DNA from: Candidatus Kaiserbacteria bacterium
Lineage (GTDB): Bacteria; Patescibacteriota; Minisyncoccia; Phycocordibacterales; UBA2100
Assembly: GCA_016867375.1 (NCBI GenBank)
Contig: VGJQ01000008.1
Location: 1-41,540, forward strand
Length of the DNA stretch: 41,540 nucleotides
Reading direction: 5' to 3'
Each line of letters begins with the position of its first letter. Position 1 is the stretch's first letter. The notes under the pieces were generated by a model. That model saw only the letters and a program-made list of their open reading frames with translations, made no database searches and was not told the DNA's origin. This document shows, piece by piece, positions 2,922 to 6,822 of this stretch. A program made the translations under genes and the position numbers.

Positions 2922-2942
2922 GCCCAAAGAAAAGCTTTGGGC
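2922..2942 (+). terminator. Hairpin after tRNA-Ser
   Basis: GCCCAAAG and CTTTGGGC form an 8-bp stem, followed after a short gap by TTTTTT. It probably ends the tRNA-Ser transcript. Confidence 0.55.
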
Positions 2943-3016
2943 GACTATGTTTTTTCTGAGAGGATGACAGGAGAGGGAAAGTGTGTCGAGAATCTATGCA
3001 AGGACACATATCCACA
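2937..3016. repeat. 80-nt direct repeat, left copy
   Basis: This 80-nt stretch begins in the hairpin 27 bases after tRNA-Ser and recurs at 6743-6822 with two mismatches. The two copies bracket about 3.7 kb. Both end in ATATCCACA, one mismatch from the DnaA box TTATCCACA. They could be target-site or attachment-site duplications, or products of recombination. Confidence 0.85.
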
Positions 3017-3042
3017 CTTATCCCCCAAAAACAATCCTCTCA

Positions 3043-3072
3043 AATCCGGCTCGTAATTGAGCCGGATTTTTT
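3043..3072 (+). terminator. Intrinsic terminator
   Basis: AATCCGGCTC / GAGCCGGATT, a perfect 10-bp stem with a 6-nt loop followed by TTTT. A clear rho-independent terminator for plus-strand transcripts from tRNA-Ser. Confidence 0.8.
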
Positions 3073-3092
3073 GGGTGATGGGGTTGAGCCAA

Positions 3093-3117
3093 GTTATCCA
3101 CAATTACGGTGGATAAC
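3093..3117. promoter_or_regulatory. Inverted pair of DnaA-box-like sites
   Basis: GTTATCCAC and GTGGATAAC face each other across 7 bases. The left half contains the exact E. coli DnaA box TTATCCACA (3094-3102); the right half is TTATCCACC on the other strand. The site could bind chromosomal DnaA, or the DnaA-domain fusion protein encoded 1.4 kb downstream. Confidence 0.55.
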
Positions 3118-3210
3118 GACATTGCATATTCTATATCGGATGCGACAATGTATGTACCGATTTGCGATTGTAGATTGGTTGATCGTTCAAAATTGAATAG
3201 AAAAACATTT

Positions 3211-3405
3211 GCCCGTCCGGCTGGTCCCCGGACATAAAACGGGCGGCCGGTACAAAGCTAACCAAATGAGGGGACAAAACCATCTTTTAGGCGGTTACTC
3301 TAGCGGAGGCGTGAAAGCGTCTCATGTTAGTTGACCAACTAGCCATGGGGGCTGATTCAAAATCTGCTTCCGTGACGAGTACCGGCCTGAGCGATGGTTT
3401 TTTGT
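3211..3405 (+). ncRNA. Multibranched structured RNA, family unknown
   Basis: The stretch folds on paper as a hairpin (GCCCGT/ACGGGC, 3211-3241) followed by a closed multi-stem domain. The outer stem AAAACCATC (3276-3284) pairs exactly with GATGGTTTT (3393-3401) and is followed by a T-rich tail. Inside are AGGC-GG-T-TACTC pairing with GAGTACCGGCCT, and hairpins GAGGCG/CGTCTC and GTTAGTT/AACTAGC. GGCCGGTAC (3245-3253) is also the exact complement of GTACCGGCC (3379-3387), so two exclusive folds are possible. It does not match tmRNA, RNase P, SRP or 6S signatures. A 54-codon open frame (3324-3488) overlaps it and may be chance. Confidence 0.45.
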
Positions 3406-3511
3406 TTTCTGGTAAACCCCATCGAAAGCTTGCGATAGGCGGTGCTTGGTCGATAGCATTGAAAACCGGCGGCAGTGACAGTCGTTAATTTATCAGTGTT
3501 GAATCATTAAG

Positions 3512-3709
3512 ATGATCGACACAGTTACAGGAGAGGTACGTAAATGTTACCTCACACCCGATGGCTTCATGGTGTGCAACTATGTTGTACGACATGGTAA
3601 AGTCATTCGGTCGGTGAGTGGGAAGTGGTTGCGTTTTCGTGCTCGCGTTCCACTCAAAAAGAAAAAACCTCCCAAGGAGGAGGTTGTTTCTGCTAAGCCA
3701 CAAACTTAG
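3512..3709 (+). CDS. Small hypothetical protein
   Basis: A 65-residue basic protein (TGEVRKCYLTPDGFMVCNY near the start, Lys-rich tail). The alternation of charged and aromatic residues is protein-like, but no family is recognised and no ribosome binding site precedes the ATG. A different, well-spaced AGGAGAGG lies inside it, upstream of an ATG in another frame that would give only 18 codons. The last codons overlap a CCTCC/GGAGG hairpin. It may be real, or a by-product of the structured RNA region next to it. Confidence 0.35.
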   Translation: MIDTVTGEVRKCYLTPDGFMVCNYVVRHGKVIRSVSGKWLRFRARVPLKKKKPPKEEVVSAKPQT

Positions 3710-3742
3710 TCTTTTTTAATTCTCACTGCAGGAGAAGCAGTT

Positions 3743-3770
3743 AAGCCCCACAAGGGGCTTTTCTGTTTCT
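3743..3770 (+). terminator. Intrinsic terminator
   Basis: AAGCCCC-ACAA-GGGGCTT followed by TTCTGTTTCT. It would end transcripts from the structured RNA and the 65-aa frame. The next 150 bases hold no supported gene; a tiny 18-codon frame (3864-3920, Lys-rich) could be the tail of a lost gene. Confidence 0.65.
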
Positions 3771-3922
3771 CCTTAGATTCAGAGTATCACCGATTCATGA
3801 TCGCAAGGCAAGTTATCAACATATTTGTGGTCCACTTATCGCTAATGTCAACAAAAAAAGATAATGGCTAAACTGCAGGCTGCAGCAAAACACTCACCAA
3901 AGAAGAAAACCGCGGAGTAAAC

Positions 3923-4014
3923 GGGGACAGGCACATTTAAACTCTAATTTGTGTGGTGTGATGCGAGTCCACATACCACACAACATGTTTGATAAAATAA
4001 TTGTGCCTGTCCCC
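3923..4014. repeat. 92-nt GGGGACAGGCAC hairpin element, copy 1
   Basis: Ends are GGGGACAGGCACA and TGTGCCTGTCCCC, a perfect 13-bp terminal inverted repeat. Inside, TTGTGTGGT pairs with ACCACACAA. A copy of equal length lies at 6646-6737 in the same orientation. Repeats with this kind of end are often REP-like elements mobilised by Y1 (RAYT) transposases in other bacteria, but none is in the window. Confidence 0.8.
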
Positions 4015-4022
4015 GTTACCTT

Positions 4023-4064
4023 CGGACGGCACGGCAGGAGGGGGTGTGAGAGGAATGCCGTGCC
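4023..4064. repeat. Left inverted-repeat end of the GHKL cassette
   Basis: CGGACGGCACGGC (4023-4035) is the exact inverse of GCCGTGCCGTCCG at 6563-6575. The end also folds on itself (GGCACGGCA / TGCCGTGCC), and the G-rich loop resembles the complement of the C-rich loop at the right end. The two ends bracket the 77-aa and 678-aa genes. Confidence 0.65.
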
Positions 4065-4092
4065 GATTTCGATCTGACTTTATTGGTACATA

Positions 4093-4122
4093 CCCCGTGG
4101 GTCGGTACTCCGACCCACGGGG
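4093..4122. terminator. Strong 13-bp hairpin upstream of the GHKL operon
   Basis: CCCCGTGGGTCGG / CCGACCCACGGGG with a TACT loop, followed by TTCTTGATTTTT. It would insulate the operon promoter from transcription entering from the left. Confidence 0.75.
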
Positions 4123-4155
4123 TTCTTGATTTTTGGCGGAATCTACTTGCAAAAT

Positions 4156-4164
4156 TTATCCACG
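4156..4164 (+). promoter_or_regulatory. DnaA-box-like site upstream of the GHKL operon promoter
   Basis: TTATCCACG, one mismatch from the DnaA box, ends 20 bases before the -35 hexamer of the operon whose second gene carries a DnaA domain IV. This suggests autoregulation by that domain or control by the chromosomal DnaA. Confidence 0.5.
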
Positions 4165-4184
4165 TGATGTATTTTGTAAGGGCA

Positions 4185-4213
4185 TTGACTTTTACATAAA
4201 TACAGAATACTAT
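4185..4213 (+). promoter_or_regulatory. Sigma-70 promoter of the GHKL operon
   Basis: TTGACT, a 17-base spacer, then TACTAT. It ends 28 bases before the ATG at 4242. Confidence 0.8.
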
Positions 4214-4241
4214 TACCAAAGTATGGATTTGCTACAAAAAT

Positions 4242-4475
4242 ATGAAAGAAAACAATAATAAAGATGAGAAGCGTGAACGGTTTAAGCGTTTGGCGACATA
4301 CAGAACCACCGAGGTTCTTAAGCGTCTGCAAGTTCTCGCAAATTGCGCCAATCGAAGCGCATACGAATACTCCGAAGATGAGATCAATAAAATTTTCTCT
4401 ACGATTGATAAAGCAGTTCGCGACGCAAAATCTAAATTCCATTATCCGAAAGAGAGGATAAATTTCAAACTCTAA
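4242..4475 (+). CDS. 77-aa protein, partner of the GHKL-DnaA fusion
   Basis: A highly charged, Lys/Glu-rich, helix-forming protein (RERFKRLATYRTTEVLKRLQ; then YSEDEINKIFSTIDKAVRDA). No transmembrane segment and no known domain are seen. It begins 28 bases after a good promoter, and the next gene starts four bases after its stop, so the two are almost certainly co-transcribed and likely act together. It could be a small regulator, an adaptor, or a helical bundle resembling small DNA-associated proteins; none of these can be shown from sequence. There is no Shine-Dalgarno sequence before its ATG. Base composition is AT-rich like the downstream gene and unlike the housekeeping genes. Confidence 0.7.
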   Translation: MKENNNKDEKRERFKRLATYRTTEVLKRLQVLANCANRSAYEYSEDEINKIFSTIDKAVRDAKSKFHYPKERINFKL

Positions 4476-4479
4476 ATTT

Positions 4480-6516
4480 ATGACGATCAGAACCAAAAAA
4501 ATCGATATAACGCCAGACAAAACCCTTTTTCCCAAAATCGGACAAACTGGCTACACGGTCGCCCAAGCCCTTTCAGAATTGATAGACAACTCGATTGATG
4601 CTCGCGACGGATCGGTAAATTTAGACATAAAAGTTGATAAGAAAAAAGGGTACATTCTCATTGCAGATGATGGTGCAGGAATGGACGAGGAAGTCGCGGC
4701 AAACAGTATCAAGCTCGGTAGTTCTCGTAAAAAAGAGGGCGACCTTGGTCAGTTTGGCATTGGACTAAAAGCGGCTTGTATGAGTTTGGGTAAAAAGTTT
4801 ACCCTCGAAACGTCGCCCAAAAATCATGATGAGGAGTTTGTTTTGATTTTTGACGAGGACGATTTCGTTTCAACGGGAAACTGGAAAGAGTTTGAATTAC
4901 AGATAAAAAAAGGTGCCGACAAAAATAAGTCGTTTACGAGAATAAAGATTGAAAAACTGAAAATAAAATTTTACGGCACTTTTTTTGAAGTTCTGAAACG
5001 ACATCTTAGTGAACGCTTTACCCCATTTATCGCCAATGGTGAAGTTGTAATAAAAATCAATGGAGAAAAGGTAAAAGCAGAGCCGTCTGAAATTTTCTCC
5101 GACAGCAAAAGAGATTTTTCAATCAAGCTAAGTAATGGCGAGACAATAACTGGCTGGACTGGAATACTTAAAGTCGGTTCCGTAGAGCGAAGCGGCTTTA
5201 ATCTTTACCGATATAAGCGACTTATTCGAGTCCACGAAAAACTCGGCTATGTTTATCACCCGTCGAAAATGGCAATTACCGGCGAGATTCACATGGATCC
5301 GCTTCCAGTAACCATTAACAAGCGAGAGTTCGAAACAGAGAACGAATACTACATAGAATTTTTTGAGAAATTTTGTGAGTATCTAAAGCCGATACTTGCA
5401 GAGGTTCAAAAACGGCACCAAGAAGAAAAAATTAAGGACTTGCCGCGCGAGATTAAAGAAACCTTAAAAGACAATATTCTCAAGGCGCTGAACGAAACCG
5501 AGGAGCTAAAAGAATTAGCATTTCCTGGTGCAGATACCAAAAAAAGAAGTGAGAACAATGAGGGTGAGTTGGACGACCAAGAACAAAGAAAAAGTCCTGA
5601 AAATGAAGTTGCAGTCGTTGAAAACGAACCCGAAGAAACAAAGGATCGAACACCGAAACAAACGCAACCAAACAGAGTTCGTTTCATGACTATTGCGGGA
5701 CACCGCTATCGTTTTGACTATGACTGGGGATCATTGGAAGAATCCATTGCAAAAGAAGCGTATTTGGACAAAGAGAGGAACACGATAATGGTAATTCTTA
5801 ATACCCACTATCACATCCTGAAAGTTTTGCCTAAGCCAGACATTTTCTACCATGTTATTTTCTTGACCGAAGGAATTGTTGAAGTGTTTTTGAGAGAAAA
5901 TAACATCTCGCTGGAAAAAGTGGTCGGTTTGCGTGACAAACTGACACAGCAACTAGCCGACATAATGGCTGAAGATGTTGCTACCGATGACGCGAAAAAA
6001 GATTCTCAAATTCTAGGCGCGCAAACCTATCTACTTAACCCAGAGCGAACGGATGTATCTCTTACAGAAAATGAGCGTCTCGTTTTGGAGCAACGATTGG
6101 AGGGCGGCAAAACTTATCAGGAAATTGCAAACGAACTTCATGTGTCTCGCCAGAGAGTTGAACAACTTTTCAGGACGGGGCTGAATAAGATAAACCGAAT
6201 TGATAAGTTGGAGAGTGTTGAGGAAGCGGAAGAAAAAGGAATTGATACATCAAAAATTATTACTGAAAATATCAATTCGGTTATTGAAAGCACAGCGCGA
6301 AATTACAGCATAAAAATTGCCGACTTACTCGGCAATAGACGACAAGCTGATCTTATTCTGCCTCGCCATACGGTAATGTATCTGCTTCGCAAAGAATTAA
6401 ATCTCTCGTTCCCAAAAATTGCCGAGGTTATGGGCAAGCGCGATCATACGACAATCATGTATGCGCATAACAAAATGAAGAAATTGATTGAAAATTCAGA
6501 TTCCGCCAAAAAATAA
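4480..6516 (+). CDS. MORC-like GHKL ATPase fused to sigma-70 region 4 and DnaA domain IV
   Basis: A 678-residue protein in three parts. Residues about 15-300 are a GHKL ATPase with N-box ELIDNSIDA (Asn37), G1 box D63-x-G65-x-G67 and G2 box GQFGIG (90-95), followed by an S5-like transducer, as in MORC, MutL and Hsp90 proteins. Residues 315-395 are a charged linker. A middle region (396-500) is unrecognised. Residues 527-573 match sigma-70 region 4 (LTENERLVLEQRL, YQEIANELHVSRQRVEQ). Residues 600-672 match DnaA domain IV, with the box-binding signature KRDHTTIMYAHNKM (653-666). It should be a DNA-bound, ATP-driven clamp, possibly for replication control, defence or element maintenance. AAA+ DnaA domain III is absent, so it is not a replication initiator of the standard type. 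Confidence 0.9.
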   Translation: MTIRTKKIDITPDKTLFPKIGQTGYTVAQALSELIDNSIDARDGSVNLDIKVDKKKGYILIADDGAGMDEEVAANSIKLGSSRKKEGDLGQFGIGLKAACMSLGKKFTLETSPKNHDEEFVLIFDEDDFVSTGNWKEFELQIKKGADKNKSFTRIKIEKLKIKFYGTFFEVLKRHLSERFTPFIANGEVVIKINGEKVKAEPSEIFSDSKRDFSIKLSNGETITGWTGILKVGSVERSGFNLYRYKRLIRVHEKLGYVYHPSKMAITGEIHMDPLPVTINKREFETENEYYIEFFEKFCEYLKPILAEVQKRHQEEKIKDLPREIKETLKDNILKALNETEELKELAFPGADTKKRSENNEGELDDQEQRKSPENEVAVVENEPEETKDRTPKQTQPNRVRFMTIAGHRYRFDYDWGSLEESIAKEAYLDKERNTIMVILNTHYHILKVLPKPDIFYHVIFLTEGIVEVFLRENNISLEKVVGLRDKLTQQLADIMAEDVATDDAKKDSQILGAQTYLLNPERTDVSLTENERLVLEQRLEGGKTYQEIANELHVSRQRVEQLFRTGLNKINRIDKLESVEEAEEKGIDTSKIITENINSVIESTARNYSIKIADLLGNRRQADLILPRHTVMYLLRKELNLSFPKIAEVMGKRDHTTIMYAHNKMKKLIENSDSAKK

Positions 6517-6530
6517 AGTCAGAACGAAGA

Positions 6531-6575
6531 CGGCACGACATTCCCTCCCCCAAACCTCTCCGGCCGTGCCGTCCG
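6531..6575. repeat. Right inverted-repeat end of the GHKL cassette
   Basis: GCCGTGCCGTCCG (6563-6575) is the exact inverse of 4023-4035. The preceding C-rich stretch and GGCACGACA mirror the left end with some changes. It may double as the terminator of the operon, since the stop codon is at 6516. Confidence 0.65.
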
Positions 6576-6645
6576 AGTCCAAATTAGCCCCGCCACCTGC
6601 CCGAATACTTGGAGGGCAGACCCCGAAGTAAATGGGGACATAAAT

Positions 6646-6737
6646 GGGGACAGGCACATTTAATTTCTAATTTGTGTGGTGTGATGCGTGTCTATATACT
6701 ACGCAACATATTTGATAAAATAATTGTACCTGTCCCC
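6646..6737. repeat. 92-nt GGGGACAGGCAC hairpin element, copy 2
   Basis: Same length and orientation as 3923-4014, roughly 88 percent identical by eye. Within the inner stem two bases differ, and both changes turn a Watson-Crick pair into a G-U pair, so the RNA hairpin would survive. Together with 6743-6822 this fills the gap between the fusion gene and the redox operon; no gene is seen there. Confidence 0.8.
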
Positions 6738-6742
6738 GTTAC

Positions 6743-6822
6743 TTGGGCGACTATGTTTTTTCTGAGAGGATGACAGGGGAGGGAAAGTGTGTCGAGAATC
6801 TATGAAAGGACACATATCCACA
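6743..6822. repeat. 80-nt direct repeat, right copy
   Basis: Matches 2937-3016 with two mismatches and ends in the same ATATCCACA. It directly follows the second 92-nt hairpin element. Confidence 0.85.

Follow-up and report, generated by a model that had tools for sequence, protein, structure and literature searches.

A 678-residue protein encoded on the forward strand of a Candidatus Kaiserbacteria contig (C8) joins a MORC ATPase, a sigma-70 region 4 and a DnaA domain IV in one chain (positions 4480–6516 of the window, by which we mean the whole 41,540-nt stretch of DNA that was analysed). By sequence and predicted fold, the core of the fusion is a true bacterial MORC. We read the protein as a laterally acquired, defence-type MORC that its tail may aim at DnaA-box-like DNA, a reading that we favour and hold at somewhat less than an even chance. 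With its predicted DNA address, the protein would allow direct tests in bacteria of how MORC clamps choose DNA. The fusion also links the part of DnaA that recognises origins with neighbourhoods of defence-type genes, in candidate-phyla bacteria, a group about whose own immune systems very little is known.

Domain architecture of the fusion

The open reading frame is intact from its ATG to its TAA, and Pfam places three domains in it above curated cut-offs: HATPase_c_3 at residues 25–135 (E = 2.5e-21; 4552–4884), Sigma70_r4, a helix-turn-helix, at residues 527–571 (E = 8.6e-11; 6058–6192), and Bac_DnaA_C at residues 599–665 (E = 2.6e-20; 6274–6474). The three-part GHKL, sigma-70 region 4 and DnaA domain IV architecture proposed in the sequence-only reading is thereby borne out, and the motifs named there (N37, D63-x-G-x-G67, GQFGIG and RDHTTIMYAHNKM) are all present and largely conserved among relatives. 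An S5-fold domain at approximately residues 168–305 (4981–5394) is supported by Pfam, alignment and fold match. A middle region at approximately residues 398–518 (5671–6033), modelled by AlphaFold2 as a beta sheet leading into long helices, is common to the tail-less relatives. When compared with PDB sequences by phmmer, the front of the fusion matches MORC2, MORC3 and MORC4, while the back corresponds to E. coli DnaA domain IV (1j1v). The same domain order occurs in four independent full-length homologs, indicating that the fusion is neither a chance join nor an assembly artefact.

Both motifs and predicted fold place the core among MORCs. Specifically, E33/N37, D63-G65-G67, G90-G95 and T153, the last lying beyond the Pfam-defined ATPase domain, constitute the four GHKL motifs; an alignment of 20 sequences shows no variation in them or in K281 of the S5-fold domain. 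Residues 239–249 (GFNLYRYKRLI) correspond to GhXhhpXXRhl, the S5 motif that sets MORCs apart as one group from the remaining GHKL proteins (Iyer, Abhiman and Aravind 2008, PMC2292703). The Pfam family Morc6_S5 is sub-threshold in the window fusion (residues 231–290, E = 8.3e-4) but above cut-off in the homolog L093 (2.5e-7). The AlphaFold2 model of the fusion has a pLDDT of 80 and a pTM of 0.48. A fold search with the whole model covered residues 11–318, the sigma region 4 and DnaA parts being assigned by sequence profiles, and returned MORC3, MORC4, SMCHD1 and MORC2 as the best matches, with Z scores of 21–24 (MORC3, 23.6, 3.1 Å over 287 residues; MORC4, 22.4; MORC2, 21.9); Hsp90 proteins rank below them, at Z scores of about 18–19. 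The four GHKL motifs, the S5 motif and the MORC-like predicted fold agree with the earlier assignment to MORC-type ATPases.

In the DnaA part, R621, D655, H656, T657 and T658 align with R399, D433, H434, T435 and T436 of 1j1v, which we take to be the base contacts of E. coli DnaA in that structure. These residues, together with R629 (E. coli R407), are invariant in all five fusions, and the DnaA part looks functional by sequence. The likeness to DnaA lies in domain IV; the fusion differs in having neither AAA+ domain III nor domain I, for which Pfam gives no match outside the domains described above. Likewise, Pfam finds region 4 of sigma-70 alone, and not region 2, which serves core binding and −10 recognition. 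A DnaA domain IV tree has too few columns to place a donor; in it the tails of the five fusions form a loose group, apart from the host DnaA. Domain IV is also reused in short candidate-phyla proteins that have no AAA+ domain (L036:2739–3422, 227 aa; L039:1–652, 217 aa), which suggests that these bacteria use it more generally as a module for reading DNA.

The host encodes its own, normal DnaA elsewhere (C1:58281–59636). Perfect TTATCCACA sites number 22 in the host genome, versus 5 for a reversed control pattern, and flank dnaA at C1:58087, 58156 and 59828. Given these flanking sites and the preserved contact residues, the fusion tail and the host DnaA could read the same sites. The fusion might then compete with DnaA for oriC boxes and clamp or release the origin. 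However, unlike replication regulators, the gene is sporadic, laterally acquired and missing in nearly all relatives, and its split and tail-less kin adjoin effectors, so that we consider control of host replication improbable.

The fusion family and its partner gene

Single-sequence scans of genome contigs and viral contigs with the fusion protein gave no match, so that a family profile built on the ATPase (A1) was needed; it yields 80 loci in species genomes. The search of candidate-phyla genomes for the same domain order, suggested by the sequence-only reading, produced four full-length homologs, from Kaiserbacteria (L091, 67% identity), Staskawiczbacteria (L094, 53%), Colwellbacteria (L092, 48%) and Magasanikbacteria (L093, 43%). 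Together with the window fusion they form one clade (support 100/98), whose sister, L132, is tail-less, so that this tree implies a single joining of the tail. Within a wider candidate-phyla MORC family of tail-less relatives, the fusions make up a small, conserved family of their own. Another candidate, L042, proved to be an ordinary DnaA.

About 1,160 candidate-phyla genomes, sampled at the level of order, class and phylum in draws that overlap, contain one fusion besides the window's own (G1091, on the same contig as L094), and the architecture is therefore rare. Searches of viral, phage and plasmid sequences returned matches to the GHKL part or the DnaA part alone, never the fusion. The architecture is unnamed in the family libraries and literature searched (a coverage with subscription papers and preprints mostly outside it), and to this extent the claim that no such protein had been described stands; the protein is not unique, being a member of a small conserved family.

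Two other clades differ in length. A MORC-like clade of about 420 aa (L108:5320–6585, L114:1655–2920, L126:684–1946 and L116–L121) occurs in candidate-phyla bacteria, Clostridia and a Woesearchaeote; L108 has a PEP-utiliser mobile domain at its C-terminus (3.2e-25), the other members end alike, and some of these genes adjoin gyrA or PEP-synthase-like and phosphatase-like genes. A thaumarchaeal MORC clade of about 620–650 aa (L110, L112, L120, L123, L124, L127, L129, L130, L134 and L137) has a distinct C-terminal half, with a weak DUF6577 match in L110.

Four base pairs upstream of the fusion lies a gene for a 77-aa helical protein (4242–4475, forward strand), assigned through homologs and predicted fold to a conserved small-ORF family, in keeping with the two-gene unit proposed earlier. 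The predicted structure is a helical hairpin of low confidence (pLDDT 72, pTM 0.34), and R21, N34, N37, Y41, F66 and F75 are invariant across 15 members. Homologs of the small ORF directly precede the MORC gene in L091, L092, L094 and L107, and the split gene in L106; no such partner was found in L093. The split locus (L106, Parcubacteria) consists of the small ORF, a 466-aa protein that begins with DnaA domain IV (3.8e-19) and carries sigma region 4 centrally (3e-6), a separate MORC, PDC-M48B (2e-88) and PDC-M48A (5e-65). This MORC falls outside the fusion clade, in another MORC clade, so that DnaA domain IV and sigma region 4 have been combined with a MORC and the small partner in two different ways.

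The small-ORF family is also found by tblastn on plasmids of Agrobacterium, Rhizobium, Dinoroseobacter, Priestia, Planococcus, Arthrobacter and others, mostly, in the cases examined, immediately upstream of a gene for at least about 620 aa. Four of these genes were scanned, and two match the predicted defence gene PDC-M33A of PADLOC. In Arthrobacter, PDC-M33B and DUF6339 (PDC-M33C) come next, and genes for Dcm, Vsr, restriction and Shedu lie nearby. PDC-M33A may be a very distant GHKL protein, as HATPase_c_3 at E = 0.003 in one related member and hhalign (E 8e-4, probability 24%) weakly suggest. The small partner in common with plasmid-borne PDC-M33 offers a handle for finding more of the class.

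Neighbouring genes, repeats and DnaA-box-like sites

The tail-less relatives, of 544–557 aa, often have an effector-like gene downstream within 20 bp. This gene encodes AbiD (L095, 4.4e-71), ThsB-TIR (L105), Ymh/HEPN (L099), PDC-M36A (L101), or a protease of trypsin-like (L098), ClpP (L104) or SDH (L096) type, and an MBL gene is likewise among the effector-like genes next to family members. The L101 gene (9637–11049, 470 aa, directly after the tail-less MORC) has no Pfam match, and its match to PDC-M36A is partial (8.9e-10). Half of the 14 immediate downstream genes match PADLOC at E ≤ 1e-5, to which Pfam adds two ClpP-type proteases. Among 60 more distant control genes on the same contigs a minority match PADLOC, mostly in restriction, methylase and helicase families, the control matches being reported by family (each in one or two genes) and not as a per-gene tally. 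The downstream enrichment of defence genes in the MORC family is thus suggestive.

For the fusion clade itself the link to defence comes from L092, with a trypsin-like protease downstream, L093, with type I restriction-modification genes (methylase-specificity gene) and a UvrD helicase upstream, and L094, with Fic upstream; moreover, adjacency is a weak argument since defence genes cluster with one another. L091 has a divergent Schlafen AlbA_2 gene as a neighbour, and neither L091 nor the window copy has an effector gene downstream.

The fusion unit is sporadic and shows signs of lateral acquisition. The gene is absent from all 35 other same-genus genomes searched, and the GC content of the two-gene unit is 40%, versus 53% for its surroundings, in the window and 42% versus 53% in L091. 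MORC units are lower in GC than their surroundings at 13 of 14 loci, with L099 equal. An orthologous empty site was sought within the genus and none was recognisable, the flanks being too divergent.

In the window, an imperfect inverted repeat of about 63 bp encloses the two-gene unit (4022–4084, forward strand, and 6512–6576, reverse strand; 83% identity, the sole copy pair in the genome, which is 1.0 Mb and 96% complete). Two copies of a REPIN-like palindromic repeat (GGGGACAGGCAC...GTGCCTGTCCCC) lie at 3918–4019 and 6641–6742, and an 80-bp direct repeat (2937–3016 and 6743–6822; 98% identical, two copies only), whose left copy starts 27 bp after tRNA-Ser, brackets a 3.7-kb AT-rich island; all four copies are on the forward strand. 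A further REPIN-like repeat with GGGGACAGGCAC ends is present at G000:C21:18090–18187, and the host genome has 12 Y1-transposase matches, which could mobilise such repeats. The island also contains a 65-aa ORF at 3512–3709 (MIDTVTGEVRKCYLTPDGFMVCNYVVRHGK...).

With a DnaA-box-like site defined as having at most one mismatch, six of the nine sites of the 41.5-kb window fall within 3008–6822, the window as a whole not being enriched (9 versus 7.2 expected). Five sites at 3008–4164, a region chosen post hoc, compare with 0.6 expected, and 0 of 200 shuffles reach this number. They include an inverted pair, TTATCCACA-N5-GGTGGATAA, written jointly TTATCCACAATTACGGTGGATAA, at 3094–3116. No 1.2-kb stretch of the dnaA-bearing contig (92 kb) is as dense in such sites as this cluster. 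These sites and the direct and inverted repeats that bracket the island would fit a protein that recognises DnaA-box-like sites there and aids replication, maintenance or movement of the island. Such a role has a low probability, since the region was picked post hoc, the island is single-copy with no integrase, transposase, relaxase or replication gene seen inside it, and the relatives have neither comparable terminal repeats nor site clusters near the unit (none of five). The earlier suggestion that the protein maintains its own element is weakened accordingly.

Direct reading of the sequence before the small ORF reveals a likely sigma-70 promoter, TTGACT-17-TACTAT (4185–4213, forward strand), with similar ones in L091, L094 and L106. 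Just upstream, 20 bp before the −35 element, lies a DnaA-box-like site, TTATCCACG (4156–4164, forward strand). This arrangement, together with two HTH-type DNA-reading domains in one protein, raises the possibility of an ATP-switched transcription regulator, whose GHKL part would sense ATP state, single-stranded DNA or a phage protein and whose tail would govern expression of the operon that encodes it or of immune genes nearby, as a single-chain counterpart of CapK/CapS. Regulation of immune operons is known for GHKL proteins that have DNA-binding partners (PMC13373217). We regard this alternative as unlikely, though with a real share of the probability. The upstream site is not conserved in relatives, no conserved DnaA-box operator being found immediately before the unit in L091, L092, L093, L094 or L106; there is no STAS or kinase-substrate partner, and the core is a MORC (GHKL plus S5), not a kinase. 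A site cluster upstream in the window and not in relatives disfavours both simple autoregulation and a conserved element origin.

Proposed action and comparison with known systems

For the favoured reading, a defence-type MORC aimed at DnaA-box-like DNA, we infer that the MORC core would dimerise on ATP and, like eukaryotic MORCs, close on DNA. Sequence specificity would come from the tail, which would bring the MORC to DnaA-box-type sites, that is, to the points at which replication of the chromosome or of an incoming replicon begins, and there it would block or compact DNA. Alternatively, the MORC may switch on the adjacent effector (protease, TIR, AbiD, HEPN or MBL) in members that have one; the window copy, with no effector adjoining, would act alone or through an unlinked gene. 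A more specific version, in which the MORC finds replicating DNA through its DnaA domain, closes, and either shuts the replicon down or sets off a neighbouring effector, as an origin-reading immune ATPase, seems rather unlikely; if true, it would represent immunity keyed on replication-start sequences.

Several known systems resemble the fusion in part. The small ORF belongs to the same family of helical partners, of about 75 aa, that directly precede PDC-M33A in the PADLOC phage defence candidate PDC-M33; the fusion itself has no PDC-M33 match, and M33B and M33C (DUF6339) are absent beside it. Membership in the MZA system is rejected, as the fusion scores 63.6 bits with MzaB, over the ATPase part only, versus at least 850 required for NCBIfam NF041932.

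CapK, an HTH-STAS-GHKL kinase, acts with a separate STAS-wHTH repressor to regulate swappable immune operons (PMC13373217). CapK and CapS resemble the fusion in combining a GHKL enzyme with sequence-specific DNA binding, and they adjoin the operons concerned; the fusion differs in having no STAS domain, for which Pfam gives no match, and no kinase relation. VcSduA (GHKL-Shedu, paraMORC3; PMC12137116) is proven to be anti-phage, with an essential ATP motif, and likewise joins a GHKL ATPase to a C-terminal functional domain. In VcSduA this domain is a PD-(D/E)xK nuclease (DUF4263), whereas in the fusion it consists of two DNA-reading domains; neither Pfam nor PADLOC finds the C-terminal DUF4263 nuclease there, which excludes Shedu type I-D. 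Neither VcSduA nor CapK/CapS is the family of the fusion protein.

Prokaryotic MORCs and paraMORCs (PMC2292703, which makes no mention of DnaA or sigma domains) are typically found with SFII helicases and methylases, whereas the fusion's family is mostly found with single effector-like genes and, unlike typical members, has a small helical partner in some clades. The fusion nevertheless shares with them the GHKL and S5 module, the four ATP motifs and the GhXhhpXXRhl motif, as well as a sporadic distribution and conflict-gene surroundings.
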